Below, in pieces: positions 3,220 through 21,729 of a stretch of DNA of 25,217 bases. Location of the stretch: positions 1 through 25,217 of IMG/VR virus record IMGVR_UViG_3300049812_000410, one strand, 5' to 3'. How positions within the stretch are numbered: position 1 is the first letter of the stretch; the number at the start of each line of letters is the position of its first letter. Made by a program: the position numbers and the translations under genes. Source of the stretch: a virus. The notes under the pieces were generated by a model. It was not told the origin of the DNA. It was given only the letters and a program-made list of their open reading frames with translations, and made no database searches.

Positions 3220-3259
3220 TTTGTGATACTATTATTTAATACTAAAACAAAGGAGAAAA

Positions 3260-3493
3260 ATGACAGAACAATTAGTTCTTCTGTCTGTCAAAGAAGTCGC
3301 ACAATTACTAGGAGTAGATAGAGCTACTATTGGAAGTTGGAATCACGCTGGTAGATTACCAAATCCAGAGTGGACTGTTTCTGGTGGGCGAACACCAATA
3401 TGGACAGAAGATACTATCAAGGACTGGGCAAACTCAGATGAGTTCGTTCAATCCAAGTTAGATGGTTGGGCAAAGAATAGGTTAGAACAATGA
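3260..3493 (+). CDS. MerR/excisionase-type helix-turn-helix protein (77 aa)
   Basis: A small DNA-binding protein. Residues 6-60 (LLSVKEVAQLLGVDRATIGSW... then a wing with GGRTPIWTEDTIKDWA) match the pattern of MerR/AlpA/Xis-like winged helix-turn-helix domains: an S-x-x-E-x-A-x-x-L-G-V-x-x-x-T-I helix pair, then a G-R wing and a second helix. The protein has no effector domain, so it probably acts as a small transcription factor or recombination-directionality-like factor. No integrase is visible, which makes the transcription role more likely. The ATG has AAAGGAG upstream. It overlaps the next gene by four bases. Confidence 0.8.
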   Translation: MTEQLVLLSVKEVAQLLGVDRATIGSWNHAGRLPNPEWTVSGGRTPIWTEDTIKDWANSDEFVQSKLDGWAKNRLEQ

Positions 3494-9923: not shown

Positions 9924-11642
9924 ATGGCAGAGAGAAGAAGTTTCAGAGATATAGTTTTCGGAACTCGTAGATTCAGAGATGACAGACAAGTCAAGAGAGC
10001 TACTGGATTTAATTTTTTTAGAAATGACCCAAACGATTTAGTGTATGGTAATTCTTCTTACATACTAGGTTGGAACTCATCTGCTGGAGATTTTAACTTA
10101 TCTGGTCTTGGGAATGGAGAATCAAACTCAGCAGTTACAGCTTGTCTGCAACTTTTAGGTATATCATTCTCTGAAGCAACATTACAAGTAATGCTGACCG
10201 ATGATGAAGGTCAAGAACAAATTATGGCAAACCACCCATTTACAATGTTGATGCGTAGACCTAATCCTTACATGTCTGGAGATGTTATTCAACAATACAT
10301 AATCAATGCAATGCATGTATCTGGTAATGCATATCTGATGAAGATGAAGAATGAAGCTGGACAGTTAGTCGCATTATATCCATTGATGCCAGAGCAAGTT
10401 ACTCCAAAAGGAGACAAAGAGAGTTTAGTAACAAGATATGAATATCAATTAGATGATGGAACTATGGTCATCAACAATGAGAACATGGTTCACTTCAAGT
10501 TAGGACTTGACCCAAAAGACCATAAAAAAGGTTACTCTCCACTGAAAACAGTATTAAGAGAAATCTATGGAGATGAGTCTGCTGGACAGATGGCAACAGC
10601 TCTACTTGCAAACTCTGGTGTACCATCAGTGTTGATTACACCAAAAGATGATTATGGTCTAACAGAAACAGAAGCAGAACAGATTTCAAGAACATATCAA
10701 CAGAAGGTTGGTGGCAAAAACAAAGGTAAGCCATTGATTCTATCTGGTTCAATGAATGTAGAGAAGTTAGCTTTCTCTCCAAAAGATTTAGATATTGGTG
10801 CATTGAGAAGAGTTCCAGAAGAGAGAATATCAGCAGTGCTTGGAGTACCAGCAATCTTAGCTGGACTTGGTGCTGGACTTGAGAGAGCAACTTATAATAA
10901 TACATCAGAGCTCAGAGAGTTCTTTACAGAACAAAAGCTCATTCCATTATGGAGAATGATTGCAGAAGAATTAACACAACAAGTTTTGATACCAGACTAT
11001 ACAGAGAATCAGAATGTATCTGCAAAGTATGACTTCTCAGAAGTAAGAGCTTTGCAGACTGATGAGAGAGAAATGTATGAAAAACTGAACATCGGAGTTC
11101 AAGGTGGTTGGATAACTATTGCAGAAGCAAGAAGTCAAGTCGGACTACCAACTAACGAAGGTCAAGATATTTATTATGTATCAAACTCTGTAATACCAAC
11201 ACAAGCAGACATGGAGATGCCAGAACAAGAAACAGAAGAAGCAGAAGAACAAACAGAAGAAGTTGTTACAGAAGATATGGAAGAGAACGAAGAAAAGAGA
11301 TTTGAAGATAAGGTAGTGAGGAAGATAGGTAATCAGTTTTGTGTGATTGCTGAAGTGTCTGGTAGGAATATGGGTTGTTACCCAACAAGAGAACTAGCAA
11401 ATGCCAGATTAGAACAAATATCAAGATTCAGTGAAAATCCAAAAGCAATCGTTGCAAGAGATACTTATACAACAAAAGAAGAAGCTGAGAGTAGAGCAGA
11501 AGAGTTAGGTTGTGAAGGAACTCATACAATAGACAGAGATGGTAACACAGTCTATATGCCTTGTTCTACTCATGCAAGATACGAACAAGCATTAGAAGAT
11601 AATCAAAGACCAGCTAATAGAACTACCTATGGCACAGCTTGA
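9924..11642 (+). CDS. HK97-family portal protein with C-terminal extension (572 aa)
   Basis: The portal forms the dodecameric DNA channel of the head. Residues 60-430 carry HK97-type portal features: NSAVTACLQLLGISF, HPFTMLMRRPNPYMSG, VSGNAYLM, LYPLMPEQV and NENMVHFKLG. Later come the SGVPSVLITP stretch, RRVPEERISAVLGVP and a helical crown with QKLIPLWRMIAEEL. After a Glu-rich linker (433-458) there is an extra domain, 459-572, with NQFCVIAEVSGRNMGCYPT and AEELGCEGTHTIDRDGN...YMPCSTH, holding five cysteines. Such a tail is not part of a minimal portal; I have seen similar phrases in other phage head proteins, but its job is unknown. The 3' end overlaps the MuF gene by fourteen bases. Confidence 0.92.
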   Translation: MAERRSFRDIVFGTRRFRDDRQVKRATGFNFFRNDPNDLVYGNSSYILGWNSSAGDFNLSGLGNGESNSAVTACLQLLGISFSEATLQVMLTDDEGQEQIMANHPFTMLMRRPNPYMSGDVIQQYIINAMHVSGNAYLMKMKNEAGQLVALYPLMPEQVTPKGDKESLVTRYEYQLDDGTMVINNENMVHFKLGLDPKDHKKGYSPLKTVLREIYGDESAGQMATALLANSGVPSVLITPKDDYGLTETEAEQISRTYQQKVGGKNKGKPLILSGSMNVEKLAFSPKDLDIGALRRVPEERISAVLGVPAILAGLGAGLERATYNNTSELREFFTEQKLIPLWRMIAEELTQQVLIPDYTENQNVSAKYDFSEVRALQTDEREMYEKLNIGVQGGWITIAEARSQVGLPTNEGQDIYYVSNSVIPTQADMEMPEQETEEAEEQTEEVVTEDMEENEEKRFEDKVVRKIGNQFCVIAEVSGRNMGCYPTRELANARLEQISRFSENPKAIVARDTYTTKEEAESRAEELGCEGTHTIDRDGNTVYMPCSTHARYEQALEDNQRPANRTTYGTA

Positions 11643-17542: not shown

Positions 17543-17625
17543 TGGGAAAAGGAAGTTATGGTTCTGGCAGTGGCTCAAGGCGTGGTGGCAGAATGAGAAG
17601 AAGAAGAAGAAGGAGTAGAAGGTAA
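17542..17625 (+). CDS. 27-residue arginine-rich protamine-like peptide
   Basis: The frame reads MGKGSYGSGSGSRRGGRM followed by RRRRRR-S-RR: a Gly/Ser linker and then an almost pure Arg tail, 11 Arg in 27 residues. It is coupled by TAATG at both ends to a head-tail gene and to the tail tube gene. It resembles in style the tiny basic DNA-condensing proteins of other viruses (such as the J protein of phiX174), but no homology can be claimed. It may enter the virion with DNA or bind RNA. The AGA/AGG codons also make a purine run (AGGAG, GAAGG) that can serve as the ribosome binding site of the tail tube gene, so selection for initiation is an alternative explanation. Confidence 0.6.
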   Translation: MGKGSYGSGSGSRRGGRMRRRRRRSRR

Positions 17626-18344
17626 TGGCATTCGTTCATGGTAAAGGCACTAAGGTTCATGTAAATGCAGTGGACTTCAGTGAATATTTTAATAATGTCG
17701 ATGTAACAAAAACATCAGATGTTGCAGAGACAACAAACTTTGGTTCATCTGGAGTAAAGACTTTTATTGCAGGAGAAGATGATGGCACATTTTCATTAAC
17801 TGGATTGTTTGATGCCACTGCTGATGCAACCCTTCAACCACTCTTAGGTGGTTCAGATTTTAATTTAATTGTTGGTATTGATGGACTTGAAACTGGAGAT
17901 AGAACCCAGTTCGGTTCTGCAAACATTACTAACTATGGTGTATCAAGCCCAGTAGGAGATGTAGTTGCAACTTCAATAGATGCTCAAGCAGATAATGGAG
18001 TTACGATAGGTCTCGTATTAAATGCTGGTGCTTATACTGCAACTGGAGTGCAAGGCAGTGCCAATGACAACTCAGCGAGTTCAACTGGTGGTGGTGGTGC
18101 ATTTCTGATTGTAACTAGCGTAAGTGGTACTTCTCCAACTGGAGATGTAAAGATTCAGCATAGTGCTGATAATGTTACTTACGCTGATTTAATAACATTC
18201 ACTCAAGCAACAAGTGCAACGAGTGAGATTAAAAAAGTAGCTGAAGGTACGACAATCAACAGGTATGTAAGAGTACATGCTACGATTGGTGGTTCATCTA
18301 CTCCAACTATTAATGCAATAGTTGGTTTTGGAAGAAATAATTAA
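17625..18344 (+). CDS. Tail tube protein 1 with C-terminal decoration domain (239 aa)
   Basis: Probable tail tube subunit. Residues 1-125 (MAFVHGKGTKVHVNAVDFSE..., FNNVDVTKTSDVAETTNFGS, TFSLTGLFDATADATLQPLL, ANITNYGVSSPVGDVVATSI) share phrases in the same order with the next gene, so the two are paralogues. Residues about 130-239 are an added beta-rich domain (GDVKIQHSADNVTYADLITF, then NRYVRVHATIG and VGFGRNN) that resembles surface decoration or carbohydrate-binding domains carried by tube proteins. A Gly/Ser-rich linker joins them. It is preceded by a strong purine-rich initiation region, as expected for an abundant structural protein. Confidence 0.75.
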   Translation: MAFVHGKGTKVHVNAVDFSEYFNNVDVTKTSDVAETTNFGSSGVKTFIAGEDDGTFSLTGLFDATADATLQPLLGGSDFNLIVGIDGLETGDRTQFGSANITNYGVSSPVGDVVATSIDAQADNGVTIGLVLNAGAYTATGVQGSANDNSASSTGGGGAFLIVTSVSGTSPTGDVKIQHSADNVTYADLITFTQATSATSEIKKVAEGTTINRYVRVHATIGGSSTPTINAIVGFGRNN

Positions 18345-18355
18345 GGAGAAGATAA

Positions 18356-18766
18356 ATGGCATTTGTACATGGTAAAAGCTCGGTATTCAAGTTGGATAAC
18401 GCAAGTGGTTCTTTAACTGACATATCAGCATTTGTGAACAATGTAGACTTCCCAGAGACAGCTGATGTAGCTGAAACAAGCGTACTAGGAGCATCAAACA
18501 AAACTTATATAGTTGGTTTAAAAGATGCAACAATATCCTTAAGTGGATTATTTGATGCTACTGTTGATGCAATCTTAGGAGCTGTTGTTGGTCAAACTGC
18601 AACTCTATCGTATGAATATAGCCCAGAAGGTACTGCTTCTGGAAAAGTAAAATACACTGGAGAAGCAATACTAACCAACTACGCACTTAGCTCCCCAGTC
18701 GGAGATGTGGTCGCTTACTCAGCAGATTTGCAATGCTCTGGTGCAGTTACTCGTGGTAGTCATTAG
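18356..18766 (+). CDS. Tail tube protein 2, paralogue without decoration domain (136 aa)
   Basis: A 136-residue single-domain version of the preceding protein. Shared landmarks in the same order are MAFVHGK, F-x-N-N-V-D, T-x-D-V-A-E-T, SLSGLFDAT, ILTNYALSSPVGDVVAYSAD. Tail tube proteins have this size and beta-sandwich character. It has its own good ribosome binding site (AAGGAG, seven bases before ATG). Either this or the 17625 protein may form the main tube, the other being mixed in or placed at one end. It directly precedes the tail assembly chaperone. Confidence 0.75.
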   Translation: MAFVHGKSSVFKLDNASGSLTDISAFVNNVDFPETADVAETSVLGASNKTYIVGLKDATISLSGLFDATVDAILGAVVGQTATLSYEYSPEGTASGKVKYTGEAILTNYALSSPVGDVVAYSADLQCSGAVTRGSH

Positions 18767-18792: not shown

Positions 18793-19119
18793 ATGAAACG
18801 ATTATCTATTGATGATATAGAAAAACTACCTTCAGTTCCAGAAGAAGAATTTGAGATTGAAGAGTGGGGTTTCTCAATATTGATTCGTGGTATCAATAAA
18901 GGTATGCAAGTTAAGTTGGGTAAATTACTTAATGAAGATGATGCTGATGCATTTGATTATCAAAAAGAATTACTCAAGGTATGCGTTATTGAACCAGAGT
19001 TAGATGATGAAACAATCGATAAGTTGTATGAAAAAGATGCTAAAGTCATTGACCAGATATTTGCAAAAATAAATGAACTCAATGGTATTGGGGGTTCTGC
19101 CGAAGCAGAACAGTTTTGA
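18793..19119 (+). CDS. Tail assembly chaperone, G-type frame (108 aa)
   Basis: The upstream part of the two-frame tail assembly chaperone that lies before the tape measure in nearly all siphoviruses. It is acidic, 108 residues (MKRLSIDDIEKLPSVPEEEF..., ILIRGINKGMQVKLGKLLNE, DQIFAKINELNGIGG). The phrase with I-R-G-I-x-K-G and a following helix, and DAKVIDQIFAKINELNG near the end, are typical of phage tail chaperones of the Actinobacteria-type. It ends at TTT-TGA (19114-19119), where a +1 shift would continue into the second frame. It coats the tape measure during tail assembly. GAGAGGAG lies before the ATG. Confidence 0.82.
   Translation: MKRLSIDDIEKLPSVPEEEFEIEEWGFSILIRGINKGMQVKLGKLLNEDDADAFDYQKELLKVCVIEPELDDETIDKLYEKDAKVIDQIFAKINELNGIGGSAEAEQF
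19111..19119 (+). other. Candidate +1 programmed frameshift site (CAG-TTT-TGA)
   Basis: The first chaperone frame ends CAG-TTT-TGA. With Phe-tRNA on TTT (19114-19116) in the P site, a slip of one base forward still pairs with TTT (19115-19117) and brings GAA (19118-19120) into the A site, opening the second frame. The slow UGA codon resembles the recoding stop of bacterial prfB. The two frames differ by +1. A slip at GGG-G (19090-19093) would also reach the second frame. Confidence 0.65.
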
Positions 19120-19309
19120 AAACAATCTTGATTTAATATTCAGATTCAAACTAGCTCGTGAGTTAGGCATGACTGTCGGAGAACTATTAGCTACAATGAG
19201 CTTCAAGGAATACAACCAGTGGATTAGTTTCTATAAATGGGAAACTGGAGAGCAAAACAAACAACAAGCTCTTGCTGAAGCTGAGCGTAATAAGAAGATG
19301 GGAAGATAA
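19118..19309 (+). CDS. Tail assembly chaperone, T-type extension read by frameshift (63 aa)
   Basis: The second chaperone frame encodes ENNLDLIFRFKLARELGMTV, GELLATMSFKEYNQWISFYK and a charged end. The L-A-x-x-L-G-M-T-V-G-E-L-L phrase followed by S-x-x-E-x-x-x-W is the classic second part of GT chaperones (T domain), which contacts tail tube protein. It has no ribosome binding site of its own: an in-frame ATG at 19073 and a later one at 19082 are within the first gene and lack one. Read through a +1 shift it would give a fused product of about 171 residues. It overlaps the tape measure start by one base. Confidence 0.78.
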   Translation, partial: ENNLDLIFRFKLARELGMTVGELLATMSFKEYNQWISFYKWETGEQNKQQALAEAERNKKMGR

Positions 19310-21729
19310 TGGCAATAGCCGATATAGCAATAAATATTGTTACTAAGGGTGCTGAGTTAGCAAAACGACAACTCAATTCACTTAGTGGCTCTGCTGGTAA
19401 GTCTGGCAACATGATGAGCAAACTTGCCACTGGTGCAAAACTTGCTGGTGTTGCTCTTGCTGTTGGTTTAGCTAAAGGTCTTACAGAAGCAGTACAAGAG
19501 TTTACTGCATTCAATGACAAGATGACACAATCTCTTGCCATTATGAACACCACTGTCGAGCAACAAAAGGCAATGGAAGAGTCTGCTCTATCTGTTTCAA
19601 GAGAGACTAGAATATCTGCTGAGCAATCTGCTGAAGCATTTTTCTTCTTAGCATCTGCTGGTTTAGATGCTGAACAGTCTATATCTGCACTTCCACAAGT
19701 AGCTAAGTTTGCTCAAGCTGGTATGTTTGATATGGCTACTGCAACTGACTTAGCAACAGATGCTCAGTCTGCATTAGGACTTACTGTCGATGATGCACAA
19801 CAAAACTTAGAAAATCTTACGAGAGTTACAGATGTTTTGGTAAAAGCTAACACATTAGCCAACTCTTCTGTACAACAGTTCTCTGAAGCACTTACTAACA
19901 AAGCTGGTTCTGCATTGAAGGTAGCTAACAAAGGTATCGAAGAAGGTGTTGCAGTATTATCAGCATTTGCAGATAGAGGTGTAAAAGGTGCTGAAGCTGG
20001 AGAAAAACTAAACCAGTTACTTCGTGATATTCCAAGAGCCACAGCAAAGAATGCTGAAGAGTTTGCAAAACTTAATCTATCTATGTTTGATTCAAGTGGT
20101 AACTTAAAAAATGTTGCAGACTTGATTGAAGAACTAGACACAGTTCTTGCACCAATGTCAGATGAGCTAAAAGCATCTACATTAGACCAGTTAGGACTAA
20201 ATCGTGGTGTTGCTGATGCTGTAAAGATATTATCTGGTGCTGGAGATGAAATAAGGGCTTATGAATCAGCTTTGATGCAATCTGGTGGTACTACTGAAGA
20301 TGTAGCAAACAAACAGATGGGTTCACTTAAAGCACAACTTGATTTGATGAACAATGCATTTTCTGAGCTAGGGATTCTCATAGGAGATATTATTGCACCA
20401 GCTCTTACTGCTTTAGTTGAAGGTGTAACAAAGACTGTCAGAAAATTCACAGACTTCATAAGTAATCAAAGAGAACTAAGTGCAGAAATAAAGAAGAATG
20501 TTGAAGAAGCAGATAAGTCAGTTGGACTTTATGGTACAAAATTACCAAAAGCATACGATGTTTATGGAACATCAGTTAAAGATACAACTGATGAATTAAT
20601 AGACCATAGGACTGCAACTGAAAAAGCTATTGAAATGGGTACTAAATATGCAGACATGAACAATGGTAGATTAGCCACTGACCAAATTGTTGCAGATGCA
20701 CTTAAAACATTTACAAGAGAAACAGAGAATAATACAGATGCGATAGAAGAACAAACAGAACAAGCCAAAGAATTTGCAGATACAATGAAATCAAAACTCT
20801 TACCTTCACTTCAATCAGTTGTTGATGCTCAAGACAAACTTAAAGATATTCAAGATAGAATAACTGATGCTGAAGAAGATAGAGATGAAGCTAGTAAGAA
20901 TCTTACAAAAGCTCAAAAAGAATTAGAAAATGCATCTTTGCAAGTTTCAGTTGCAGAACAAAAACTAGCTGATGCAAAAGATAAAGCAAAACAAGTTACC
21001 CTAGAAGAAAAACTTGCAATAGCACAGCAAGAAGAAACTATTAGAAAATTAGTTGAAACTGAAGAGCGTAATGAGATACAAGAGCTTCAGTTAGCAATAG
21101 CAAAAGAAAAACTTACAGAATTAATAGAAGCATCTACTGGAGCTACTAATGAACAAACACAAGCTGAGAGAGAGTTAGAGAGAGCTTTAGAAGCAGAACA
21201 AAGAGCTACTGAGCGTGTTACAAAAGCACAAGAAGCACTTACCAAAGCACAAAAAGAACTTAATGAAGTAACTGCAAAGACACCAAAGAATCTTCTTGAG
21301 ATAGCTATGGCTAAAAAAGAATTAGATGATGCTCTTAAAAATTTAGATGCACTTGGTTCTTTTGAAGATGGATTAGCACTTCTTGTTGAATCGACTGGTA
21401 TGAAGCTACAAGATTTAATAAATATGGCTAATGCAATAAGAAGTGGTAATAATATTTCAGTTGGTTCTGGTGGTGGTGGAGACTCTGGTGGTGGAGATGG
21501 TGGAAGCACTGGGAGTGAAACTTTTGATACTGATGGTGTATCTGATGGTGGTGCTGGAAATGATGTAATACCTTCAAGAGTTCCAGCATCTCAAAGAGTA
21601 GCTAGTACAGTTCTATTTACACAAAATCTTAAGTTTGAAAATCCTAAACTTGAAGGAGATGAACTTGCTCTCAAAGTTGCAGAACAAGTTAGAAGAGCAA
21701 CAAGAAATGGTATCAAAGTTATAACATGA
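19309..21729 (+). CDS. Tail tape measure protein (806 aa)
   Basis: Sets tail length and is released during DNA entry. Residues about 1-60 hold the start (IADIAINIVTKGAELAKRQL) and a hydrophobic segment (GAKLAGVALAVGLAKGL). Residues about 65-330 are the TP901-like core (TAFNDKMTQSLAIMN, SAEQSAEAFFFLASAGLDAE, LPQVAKFAQAGMFDMATATD, SVQQFSEALTNKAGSALKVA, DRGVKGAEAGEKLNQLLRDI). Another apolar stretch is near 350-375 (LGILIGDIIAPALTALVEGV). Residues about 485-690 are heptad-like coiled coil, followed by a Gly/Ser-rich linker. At about 1.5 angstrom per residue the tail would be near 120 nm. The ATG shares one base with the chaperone stop. Confidence 0.93.
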   Translation: MAIADIAINIVTKGAELAKRQLNSLSGSAGKSGNMMSKLATGAKLAGVALAVGLAKGLTEAVQEFTAFNDKMTQSLAIMNTTVEQQKAMEESALSVSRETRISAEQSAEAFFFLASAGLDAEQSISALPQVAKFAQAGMFDMATATDLATDAQSALGLTVDDAQQNLENLTRVTDVLVKANTLANSSVQQFSEALTNKAGSALKVANKGIEEGVAVLSAFADRGVKGAEAGEKLNQLLRDIPRATAKNAEEFAKLNLSMFDSSGNLKNVADLIEELDTVLAPMSDELKASTLDQLGLNRGVADAVKILSGAGDEIRAYESALMQSGGTTEDVANKQMGSLKAQLDLMNNAFSELGILIGDIIAPALTALVEGVTKTVRKFTDFISNQRELSAEIKKNVEEADKSVGLYGTKLPKAYDVYGTSVKDTTDELIDHRTATEKAIEMGTKYADMNNGRLATDQIVADALKTFTRETENNTDAIEEQTEQAKEFADTMKSKLLPSLQSVVDAQDKLKDIQDRITDAEEDRDEASKNLTKAQKELENASLQVSVAEQKLADAKDKAKQVTLEEKLAIAQQEETIRKLVETEERNEIQELQLAIAKEKLTELIEASTGATNEQTQAERELERALEAEQRATERVTKAQEALTKAQKELNEVTAKTPKNLLEIAMAKKELDDALKNLDALGSFEDGLALLVESTGMKLQDLINMANAIRSGNNISVGSGGGGDSGGGDGGSTGSETFDTDGVSDGGAGNDVIPSRVPASQRVASTVLFTQNLKFENPKLEGDELALKVAEQVRRATRNGIKVIT

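Follow-up and report, generated by a model that had tools for sequence, protein, structure and literature searches.

The tail assembly chaperone genes of this virus, one of a family of uncultured bacterial viruses, which we call G and T after the phage lambda pair, are very likely expressed in part as a siphovirus-type G-T fusion made by a programmed +1 frameshift, a conclusion that rests on sequence comparison without product data. Comparison with relatives establishes the reading frame, the slip codon, the exclusion of other shift points, coding in two frames, and the presence of a conserved hairpin and a Shine-Dalgarno-like motif just upstream. The hairpin is likely the main stimulator of the shift, with the UGA stop codon and the G-rich run as helpers; its stimulatory effect is inferred, and we have no efficiency data.

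Results

The locus

The window, by which we mean the whole 25,217-base stretch of DNA analyzed, encodes a siphovirus-type head and tail module with terminase, portal, capsid and tail genes, and no tRNA genes were found in it. The features that concern us are as follows.

17625-18344, + strand: first of two adjacent major tail proteins (phrog_9522, E 3.1e-48)
18356-18766, + strand: second major tail protein, immediately 5' of G (phrog_10528, E 3e-46; PF06199, E 8.5e-9)
18793-19119, + strand: G, predicted tail assembly chaperone (profile and fold), zero frame, 108 aa, ending in TTT TGA
19090-19094, + strand: GGGGG, Shine-Dalgarno-like, 5' of the hairpin, its last G able to join the stem (predicted 16S pairing)
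19094-19111, + strand: RNA hairpin with arms GUUCUGC (19094-19100) and GCAGAAC (19105-19111) and loop CGAA (19101-19104) (folding and covariation)
19114-19117, + strand: slip site UUU-U (UUU-C in most relatives), where the P-site tRNA-Phe would move +1 (sequence and relatives)
19117-19119, + strand: zero-frame stop codon UGA, occupying the A site during the slip (TTTTGA in 30 of 78 distinct junctions)
19118-19309, + strand: T domain, +1 frame after the slip, 63 aa and TAA (phrog_337, dN/dS, predicted helical)
19309-21729, + strand: tape measure protein, immediately 3' of T (phrog_1533, E 1.4e-63; PF10145, E 7.2e-30)

The order of genes, from major tail protein through G and T to tape measure protein, is that of a lambda-type chaperone pair. 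G matches the tail assembly chaperone profile phrog_344 (E 7.8e-7), as do 26 of 33 relatives, and T matches the tail protein profile phrog_337 (E 8.7e-8), as do all 33. Among solved structures, the predicted fold of G (pLDDT 86.9) most closely resembles YqbN (3klu, Z 9.4) and the HK97 tail assembly chaperone (2ob9, Z 7.9), the top rows among the 52 chains compared, and Foldseek gave an E of only 0.05 for this fold. The identification of G as a tail assembly chaperone is thus a prediction from its profile and modeled fold. T is predicted to be helical (pLDDT 84.1). A search of the G protein against 50,697 phage records returned 0 matches, leaving G without a cultured-phage counterpart in that set.

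Elsewhere in the module, the two major tail proteins at 17625-18344 and 18356-18766 are related to one another, and the first of them is extended at its C terminus; the annotations of Arthrobacter phages Kovu and Ottawa likewise show two neighboring major tail proteins. The portal gene at 9924-11639 has a C-terminal DUF3721 match (PF12518, E 6.8e-10, residues 515-551). DUF3721 is not known as a common addition to portal proteins.

A +1 frame and a re-pairing Phe codon

The last zero-frame codons of G are GCA GAA CAG TTT TGA, with TTT at 19114-19116 and TGA at 19117-19119. The open frame spanning 19073-19309 is +1 relative to G; position 19073 is the start of an ATG-begun ORF, and the portion translated after the slip is 19118-19309. 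The -1 arrangement expected of a chaperone pair, with its canonical slippery heptamer, does not apply here, T being +1 to G, and the -1 frame closes 20 nt past the G stop. What is present is the prfB-type arrangement, a re-pairing slip codon followed by a stop (TTT TGA), and among the last zero-frame codons UUU alone can re-pair one base on. Reading UUUU as a single Phe joins the two frames into a protein of 171 residues (...AEAEQF-ENNLDLIF...).

Relatives were collected by three viral-contig scans (with G, T and tail-tube proteins), two profile scans and one genome scan, giving loci L002-L399. Because many contigs recur under several locus identifiers, locus counts are not virus counts, and we give distinct junctions where we can. 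A first survey found the +1 arrangement in 59 of 63 distinct junctions, the remaining 4 being relatives of less than 30% identity. Profiles of both proteins then located T in 395 of 400 sequences: 370 of these loci have T in the +1 frame beside a related G, 1 is +1 without a G match, 21 are -1 and 3 are unreadable. An in-frame TTT lies near the stop in 367 of the 370 +1 loci, the next base is T or C, and a P-site tRNA on UUU can therefore re-pair in the +1 frame, on UUU or UUC, in all 367. They represent 78 distinct junctions, 30 with TTTT(GA) and 48 with TTTC. In the TTTC junctions the zero-frame stop lies two or more codons past the slip codon and is never in the A site. A tree of 48 representatives, which are less than 90% identical to each other and exclude L397 and L399, implies at least four interchanges between the two forms. 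At the site itself all 48 representatives use TTT for Phe, against 212:53; this test overstates the case because the representatives were preselected for TTT, and 367 of 370 loci is the fair figure.

Three of the 370 loci depart from the pattern. L143 has TTT-C further upstream, and L206 and L231 have GAT TTC AAA AGC at the site with no in-frame TTT. In the latter two a slip on AAA-A would be required, and such a slip may possibly have replaced the one on TTT. Inspection of these two loci (about 3240-3290) shows that bases are shifted at the site and that the hairpin-forming arms are retained.

Purifying selection acts on G and on T, in each case on its side of the slip site. Median dN/dS is 0.20 for the zero frame of G and 0.25 for the +1 frame of T, with values of about 1 or more in the other frames, and the +1 frame 5' of the slip codon gives 0.96, meaning no coding selection. 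These values come from 24 representatives, nearly all of one length type, with many pairs omitted as saturated; an ungapped calculation gave 1.14 for the own frame of G, because unequal lengths at the 3' end misaligned the codons.

The original prediction, made from the sequence alone, had placed T in the +1 frame instead of the usual -1, with a slip at TTT that preserves tRNA pairing and a product of about 171 residues reading ...AEQF-ENNLD... across the junction. All three parts hold: the frame in 370 of the 395 loci with T, the slip codon as TTT-T/C in 367 of the 370 +1 loci, and the product by in silico joining (171). Its proposal of a slow UGA in the A site, as in prfB, holds only in part. 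The UGA is present here but is not the general driver, because 48 of 78 junctions are TTTC and the two types have interchanged repeatedly; across relatives TTT is kept and TGA is optional. The prediction had also named -1 relatives as a possible refutation. Such relatives exist as 21 loci, but all are distant, and since no close relative has a -1 arrangement they do not refute the +1 shift here.

A conserved hairpin directly upstream of the slip codon

The original prediction missed two conserved elements, a hairpin and a Shine-Dalgarno-like motif, both upstream of the slip codon. In this record the hairpin ends 2 nt 5' of the slip codon, or 3 nt if only its 6-bp core (19095-19110) is counted. 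Of the 78 junctions, 71 have an uninterrupted stem of 4-8 pairs, drawn from 26 distinct 5' arms, and its distance to the slip codon is 1-6 nt, mostly 2-5. The 46 TTTC junctions that retain such a stem are all but two of the 48. Among the seven junctions lacking an uninterrupted stem, L044, L047, L051, L052 and L058 fold with bulges where shown, and in L397 and L399, relatives from bacterial genomes, the hairpin is absent. Other sub-families place quite different stems at the same point, for example UUCAGACA-GAAA-UGUCUGAA.

Folding energies mark the same position. The 26-nt segment that ends at the slip codon has a mean MFE of -7.8 kcal/mol across the 48 representatives, compared with about -0.5 to -2.8 elsewhere, and our stem score is passed by 46 of 48 at this position versus 385 of 1,920 other positions. 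The natural hairpin is also more stable than synonymous recodings (mean z -1.96 over 33 representatives). The exception is L176, where the average recoding is the more stable, and for several others the margin is narrow; the Stouffer z of this test treats relatives as independent. When this record's stretch is folded in full, its stability is ordinary compared with shuffles (z -0.81), and an Rfam search gave no match. We found no conserved 3' structure near the slip site (mean MFE -0.9 to -1.3 for 30 nt starting at +4 to +13). A mild, family-wide rise in stability is seen +60 to +90 nt past the slip codon, within T (mean 26-nt MFE about -2.7). Among the -1 relatives, which comprise 10 distinct junctions, the local fold reaches -7 to -8 kcal/mol in three (L140, L158, L160) and is weaker in the other seven.

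Evidence that this hairpin is maintained as RNA comes from silent positions. In the commonest stem type the third bases of a Ser codon (TCN) and an Ala codon (GCN) pair with each other, and a change at either is silent. These third bases form Watson-Crick pairs in all 43 distinct junctions (TA 35, GC 6, CG 2), and are complementary in 25 of 25 representatives, where codon usage predicts 38%. Sequences entered this test solely by the first two bases of the two codons, and were not chosen to fit the stem. The tree requires at least three changes of pair type. When 44 sequences (31 distinct rows) are aligned without gaps, the variable pair is UA 25, GC 4 and CG 2 with no one-sided change, and the covariation score of 0.149, versus 0.040 in shuffles, was reached by 0 of 500; this set, by contrast with the Ser/Ala test, was chosen to fit the stem, with 8 sequences of another stem register removed from a group of 52 of the 78. 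Matching silent changes, together with differing stems at one place, demonstrate that selection in this region acts on RNA structure and not on the peptide.

A Shine-Dalgarno-like run 5' of the hairpin

Immediately upstream of the stem, relatives carry GGGGG or GGAGG. Predicted pairing with the 3' end of 16S rRNA peaks at this run, where its mean is -5.6 kcal/mol; across most of the G sequence around it the value is close to zero. The pairing is -5 or better in 45 of 48 representatives, and the motif is weak in the other 3. Where the run consists of two Gly codons, GGA or GGG fills the first position in 34 of 39 cases, versus 104 of 284 Gly codons elsewhere (p 1.4e-9). In primary sequence the run here lies 19 nt from the slip codon and so fails the 3-nt spacing of prfB. 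We infer that looping out the 6-bp hairpin would leave 3 nt, the prfB spacing, with a looser fit in other sub-families.

Alternative explanations

Two alternatives would reach T from further upstream, and we consider both very unlikely. One is a -2 slip at the G-run (GGG GGU, 19090-19095), as documented for phage Mu (PMC5009743), which would enter the same downstream frame and give a fusion one residue longer. In its favor, the overlap contains GGGGG, and in this record the +1 frame opens at -41, counted from the slip codon, well 5' of the run, so that a -2 shift at 19093-19095 could be read through. The other is that T is a separate gene, translated without frameshifting from ATG 19073 or another start in the overlap; the +1 frame 5' of the slip codon here does contain two ATG codons and one TTG. 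The relatives argue against both. In 20 of 76 family junctions (12 of 57 in the first junction set and 8 of 19 new ones) a +1-frame stop lies between the G-rich motif and the slip codon, no more than 11 nt upstream of the latter, leaving just 5-8 open nt, so that neither a -2 slip at the G-run nor an upstream start can reach T there. A junction at the G-run, which the original prediction had named as a result that would overturn it, is thus unworkable in these cases. Many relatives moreover have GGAGG in place of the G-run, and the absence of coding selection in the +1 frame 5' of the slip codon (see above) counts against both the -2 slip and a protein begun at an upstream start. In 24 of 57 distinct junctions the +1 frame is free of ATG, GTG and TTG from -60 to +50 around the slip codon. 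The first start codon beyond that stretch lies at +55 in most and encodes a Met that is conserved within the T helix. (The 57-junction set left out 19 loci without a G match, 5 below 45% identity, 2 running off the contig and 2 without TTT.) Because stops in relatives exclude both the G-run slip and upstream starts, +1 slippage of tRNA-Phe on UUU-U/C is, very probably, the only economical reading of these sequences.

The remaining alternatives accept the junction and differ on what causes it. The slip might be driven by the slow UGA, with the Shine-Dalgarno-like run, as in prfB, leaving the hairpin with another role or none. TTTTGA is indeed present here and in 30 of 78 junctions, the G-rich motif is conserved, and prfB variants with a Phe codon before TGA are known from low-GC bacteria (PMC12421855). 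We nonetheless regard this as unlikely: the A site lacks a stop codon in 48 of 78 junctions, of which only two are without an uninterrupted stem, the G-run is 19 and not 3 nt from the slip codon, and the hairpin covaries silently at a nearly constant distance from it. Transcriptional slippage, in which the polymerase inserts or skips a base within the T run with the aid of a nascent hairpin, has in its favor that a hairpin followed by a U-run resembles a terminator and that a hairpin-stimulated case exists in a Roseiflexus insertion sequence (PMC5009743). The T run is only 3 in the 48 TTTC junctions and 4 in the others, and known polymerase slippage runs are longer than 3-4 T; this explanation is all but excluded. 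The reading we retain is ribosomal +1 slippage at UUU.

Discussion

A proposed model for hairpin-stimulated +1 frameshifting

We propose that most ribosomes would terminate at UGA 19117-19119 and release G (108 aa), while in a minority the P-site tRNA-Phe on UUU 19114-19116 would slip +1 onto UUU 19115-19117 (UUC in most relatives) and yield the 171-aa product. In this model, the hairpin would refold behind the ribosome, against its E site, once the 3' arm has left the decoding sites, and would pull the mRNA backwards through the ribosome, favoring a forward slip and blocking a backward one. Where a junction carries UGA, this codon may prolong the pause. The G-rich motif may pair with 16S rRNA, the hairpin looping out the intervening 16 nt to leave a 3-nt spacing, or may slow the ribosome just before the site. 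By analogy with phage lambda, the roles of G and GT would be to bind the tape measure protein and to recruit the tail-tube protein.

We take the hairpin as the main stimulator because the stem would sit against the E site, the slip codon can re-pair, and the stem shows matched changes. It is not an absolute need for +1 shifting in the wider family, since L397 and L399 are +1 with TTTC and lack an uninterrupted stem. A bolder reading, towards which we lean only modestly, is that these phages carry a natural and widely conserved +1 signal for bacterial ribosomes with a covarying hairpin as its main stimulator. In that reading the hairpin would act as the pulling motor, or would also bring the G-run to the prfB distance, uniting the modes of prfB and yeast ABP140.

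Relation to known frameshift stimulators

The phage element shares with prfB a one-base-forward slip in the P site, a UGA in the A site (in this record) and an upstream G-rich Shine-Dalgarno-like run. The prfB motif is AGGGGG, 3 nt, CTTT and TGA, with a Phe codon at the slip position in some low-GC bacteria (PMC12421855). The phage element differs in that its run is 19 nt away with a hairpin between, only 30 of 78 junctions carry the UGA, there is no autoregulation, and the protein is another one.

Upstream hairpins have been linked to frameshifting before. Artificial ones stimulate +1 shifts in yeast, and in the attenuation of -1 shifts their stability and proximity matter (PMC3639245). Huang et al. 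2018 found that, on 70S ribosomes, an artificial hairpin near the E site stands in for an internal Shine-Dalgarno duplex and promotes +1 shifting at CUUUGA, only without RF2 and with a hairpin of 12 base pairs (PMC6321510); the 4-8 bp phage stems are shorter. Fenton et al. 2025 described a natural, conserved stem-loop with matched substitutions upstream of the +1 site of yeast ABP140, which raises +1 shifting only if the P-site tRNA can re-pair, and for which mRNA pulling was proposed (PMC12661321). Like ABP140 and the artificial constructs, the phage element has a stem-loop directly 5' of a re-pairing +1 site, and the phage family fits the ABP140-class pattern of a conserved, covarying stem-loop within a few nt of that site. 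ABP140, however, is a eukaryotic gene that shifts at CUU-AGG-C with its stem 6 nt upstream, and the 70S case is artificial, whereas the phage element is natural, uses UUU-U/C with a stem below 12 bp, has a Shine-Dalgarno-like run and appears with 26 different 5' arms. In T4 gene 60 bypassing, a 5' stem-loop at the mRNA exit is thought to pull mRNA (PMC5009743), as we propose here. The influenza PA-X +1 site is likewise UUU-C (PMC3498833).

The open-access literature that we searched contained no natural upstream hairpin stimulating +1 frameshifting in bacteria or phages, and as far as that search goes the conserved upstream hairpin is the new part of this work. Stimulators of +1 frameshifting are poorly known, and by the account of the PRFect authors no motif general to forward shifts is known (PMC10885494). 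Fenton et al. expect upstream structures to work outside yeast, the bacterial support they name being limited to Shine-Dalgarno pairing, artificial hairpins and T4 bypassing (PMC12661321). What we describe is, in our judgment, likely to be a chaperone frameshift in the +1 direction, for which a hairpin occurring naturally upstream probably acts as a stimulator on bacterial ribosomes, stimulation again being an inference. The phage family offers a natural set of 26 stem arms, two slip-site versions and silent compensatory changes, a variety with which the mRNA-pulling model could be put to a direct test in E. coli. Annotators could also use it to recognize +1 chaperones overlooked by scans for -1 motifs.

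Frame direction in tail assembly chaperones

Lambda G/GT lies in the same place, between the major tail protein and the tape measure gene, and comprises, as we predict here, a short G and a rarer extended GT, with shared chaperone fold and profiles. As in a lambda-type pair, T lies in an overlapping frame, is under coding selection and can be reached only by a frameshift near the end of G. Lambda and most relatives shift -1, whereas the present family shifts +1 at UUU-U/C; we place the locus with this pair nonetheless, because the pair is defined by a frameshift and not by its direction (PMC5009743). The original prediction called +1 a rare recoding mode for these proteins, which holds, though +1 shifting in the chaperone pair is not new as such: Atkins et al. 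already state in their review that tailed phages use -1, -2 or +1 for it, and that haloarchaeal HSTV-2 very likely uses +1 (PMC5009743). Listeria phages PSA, A118 and A500 and Bacillus phage SPP1 also have a +1 shift in a siphovirus tail module (PMC5009743, PMC6316719), but the slip is at CCC-U in the tail-tube gene and not in the chaperone, and the SPP1 chaperone pair is a putative -1 case.

Homologous gene pairs are thus documented with -1 in some lineages and +1 in others. In a first set of named phages the homologous modules are -1 in 7 of 7 (Arthrobacter Kovu, Salgado and Ottawa; Microbacterium ValentiniPuff; Roseobacter CRP-406; Pelagibacter HTVC112P and HTVC026P), and in a second set 3 of 4 are -1 (Streptomyces PHTowN and Moraxella Mcat32 and Mcat23), the fourth, Microcystis phage Mae-JY09, being +1. 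UUU-C with a +1 frame is found in Mae-JY09 (L400) and in the bacterial-genome loci of Carboxydocella (L397) and a Thiobacillus MAG (L399). UUU-C +1 chaperones therefore extend beyond the present clade, and the direction of the frameshift has switched in the history of the pair.

In Mae-JY09 the two chaperone parts are annotated as separate hypothetical proteins, and in two Pelagibacter phages (L408, L409) and Arthrobacter phage Salgado (L405) the -1 T extension is unannotated in public records, with the -1 frame open up to or near the tape measure gene.
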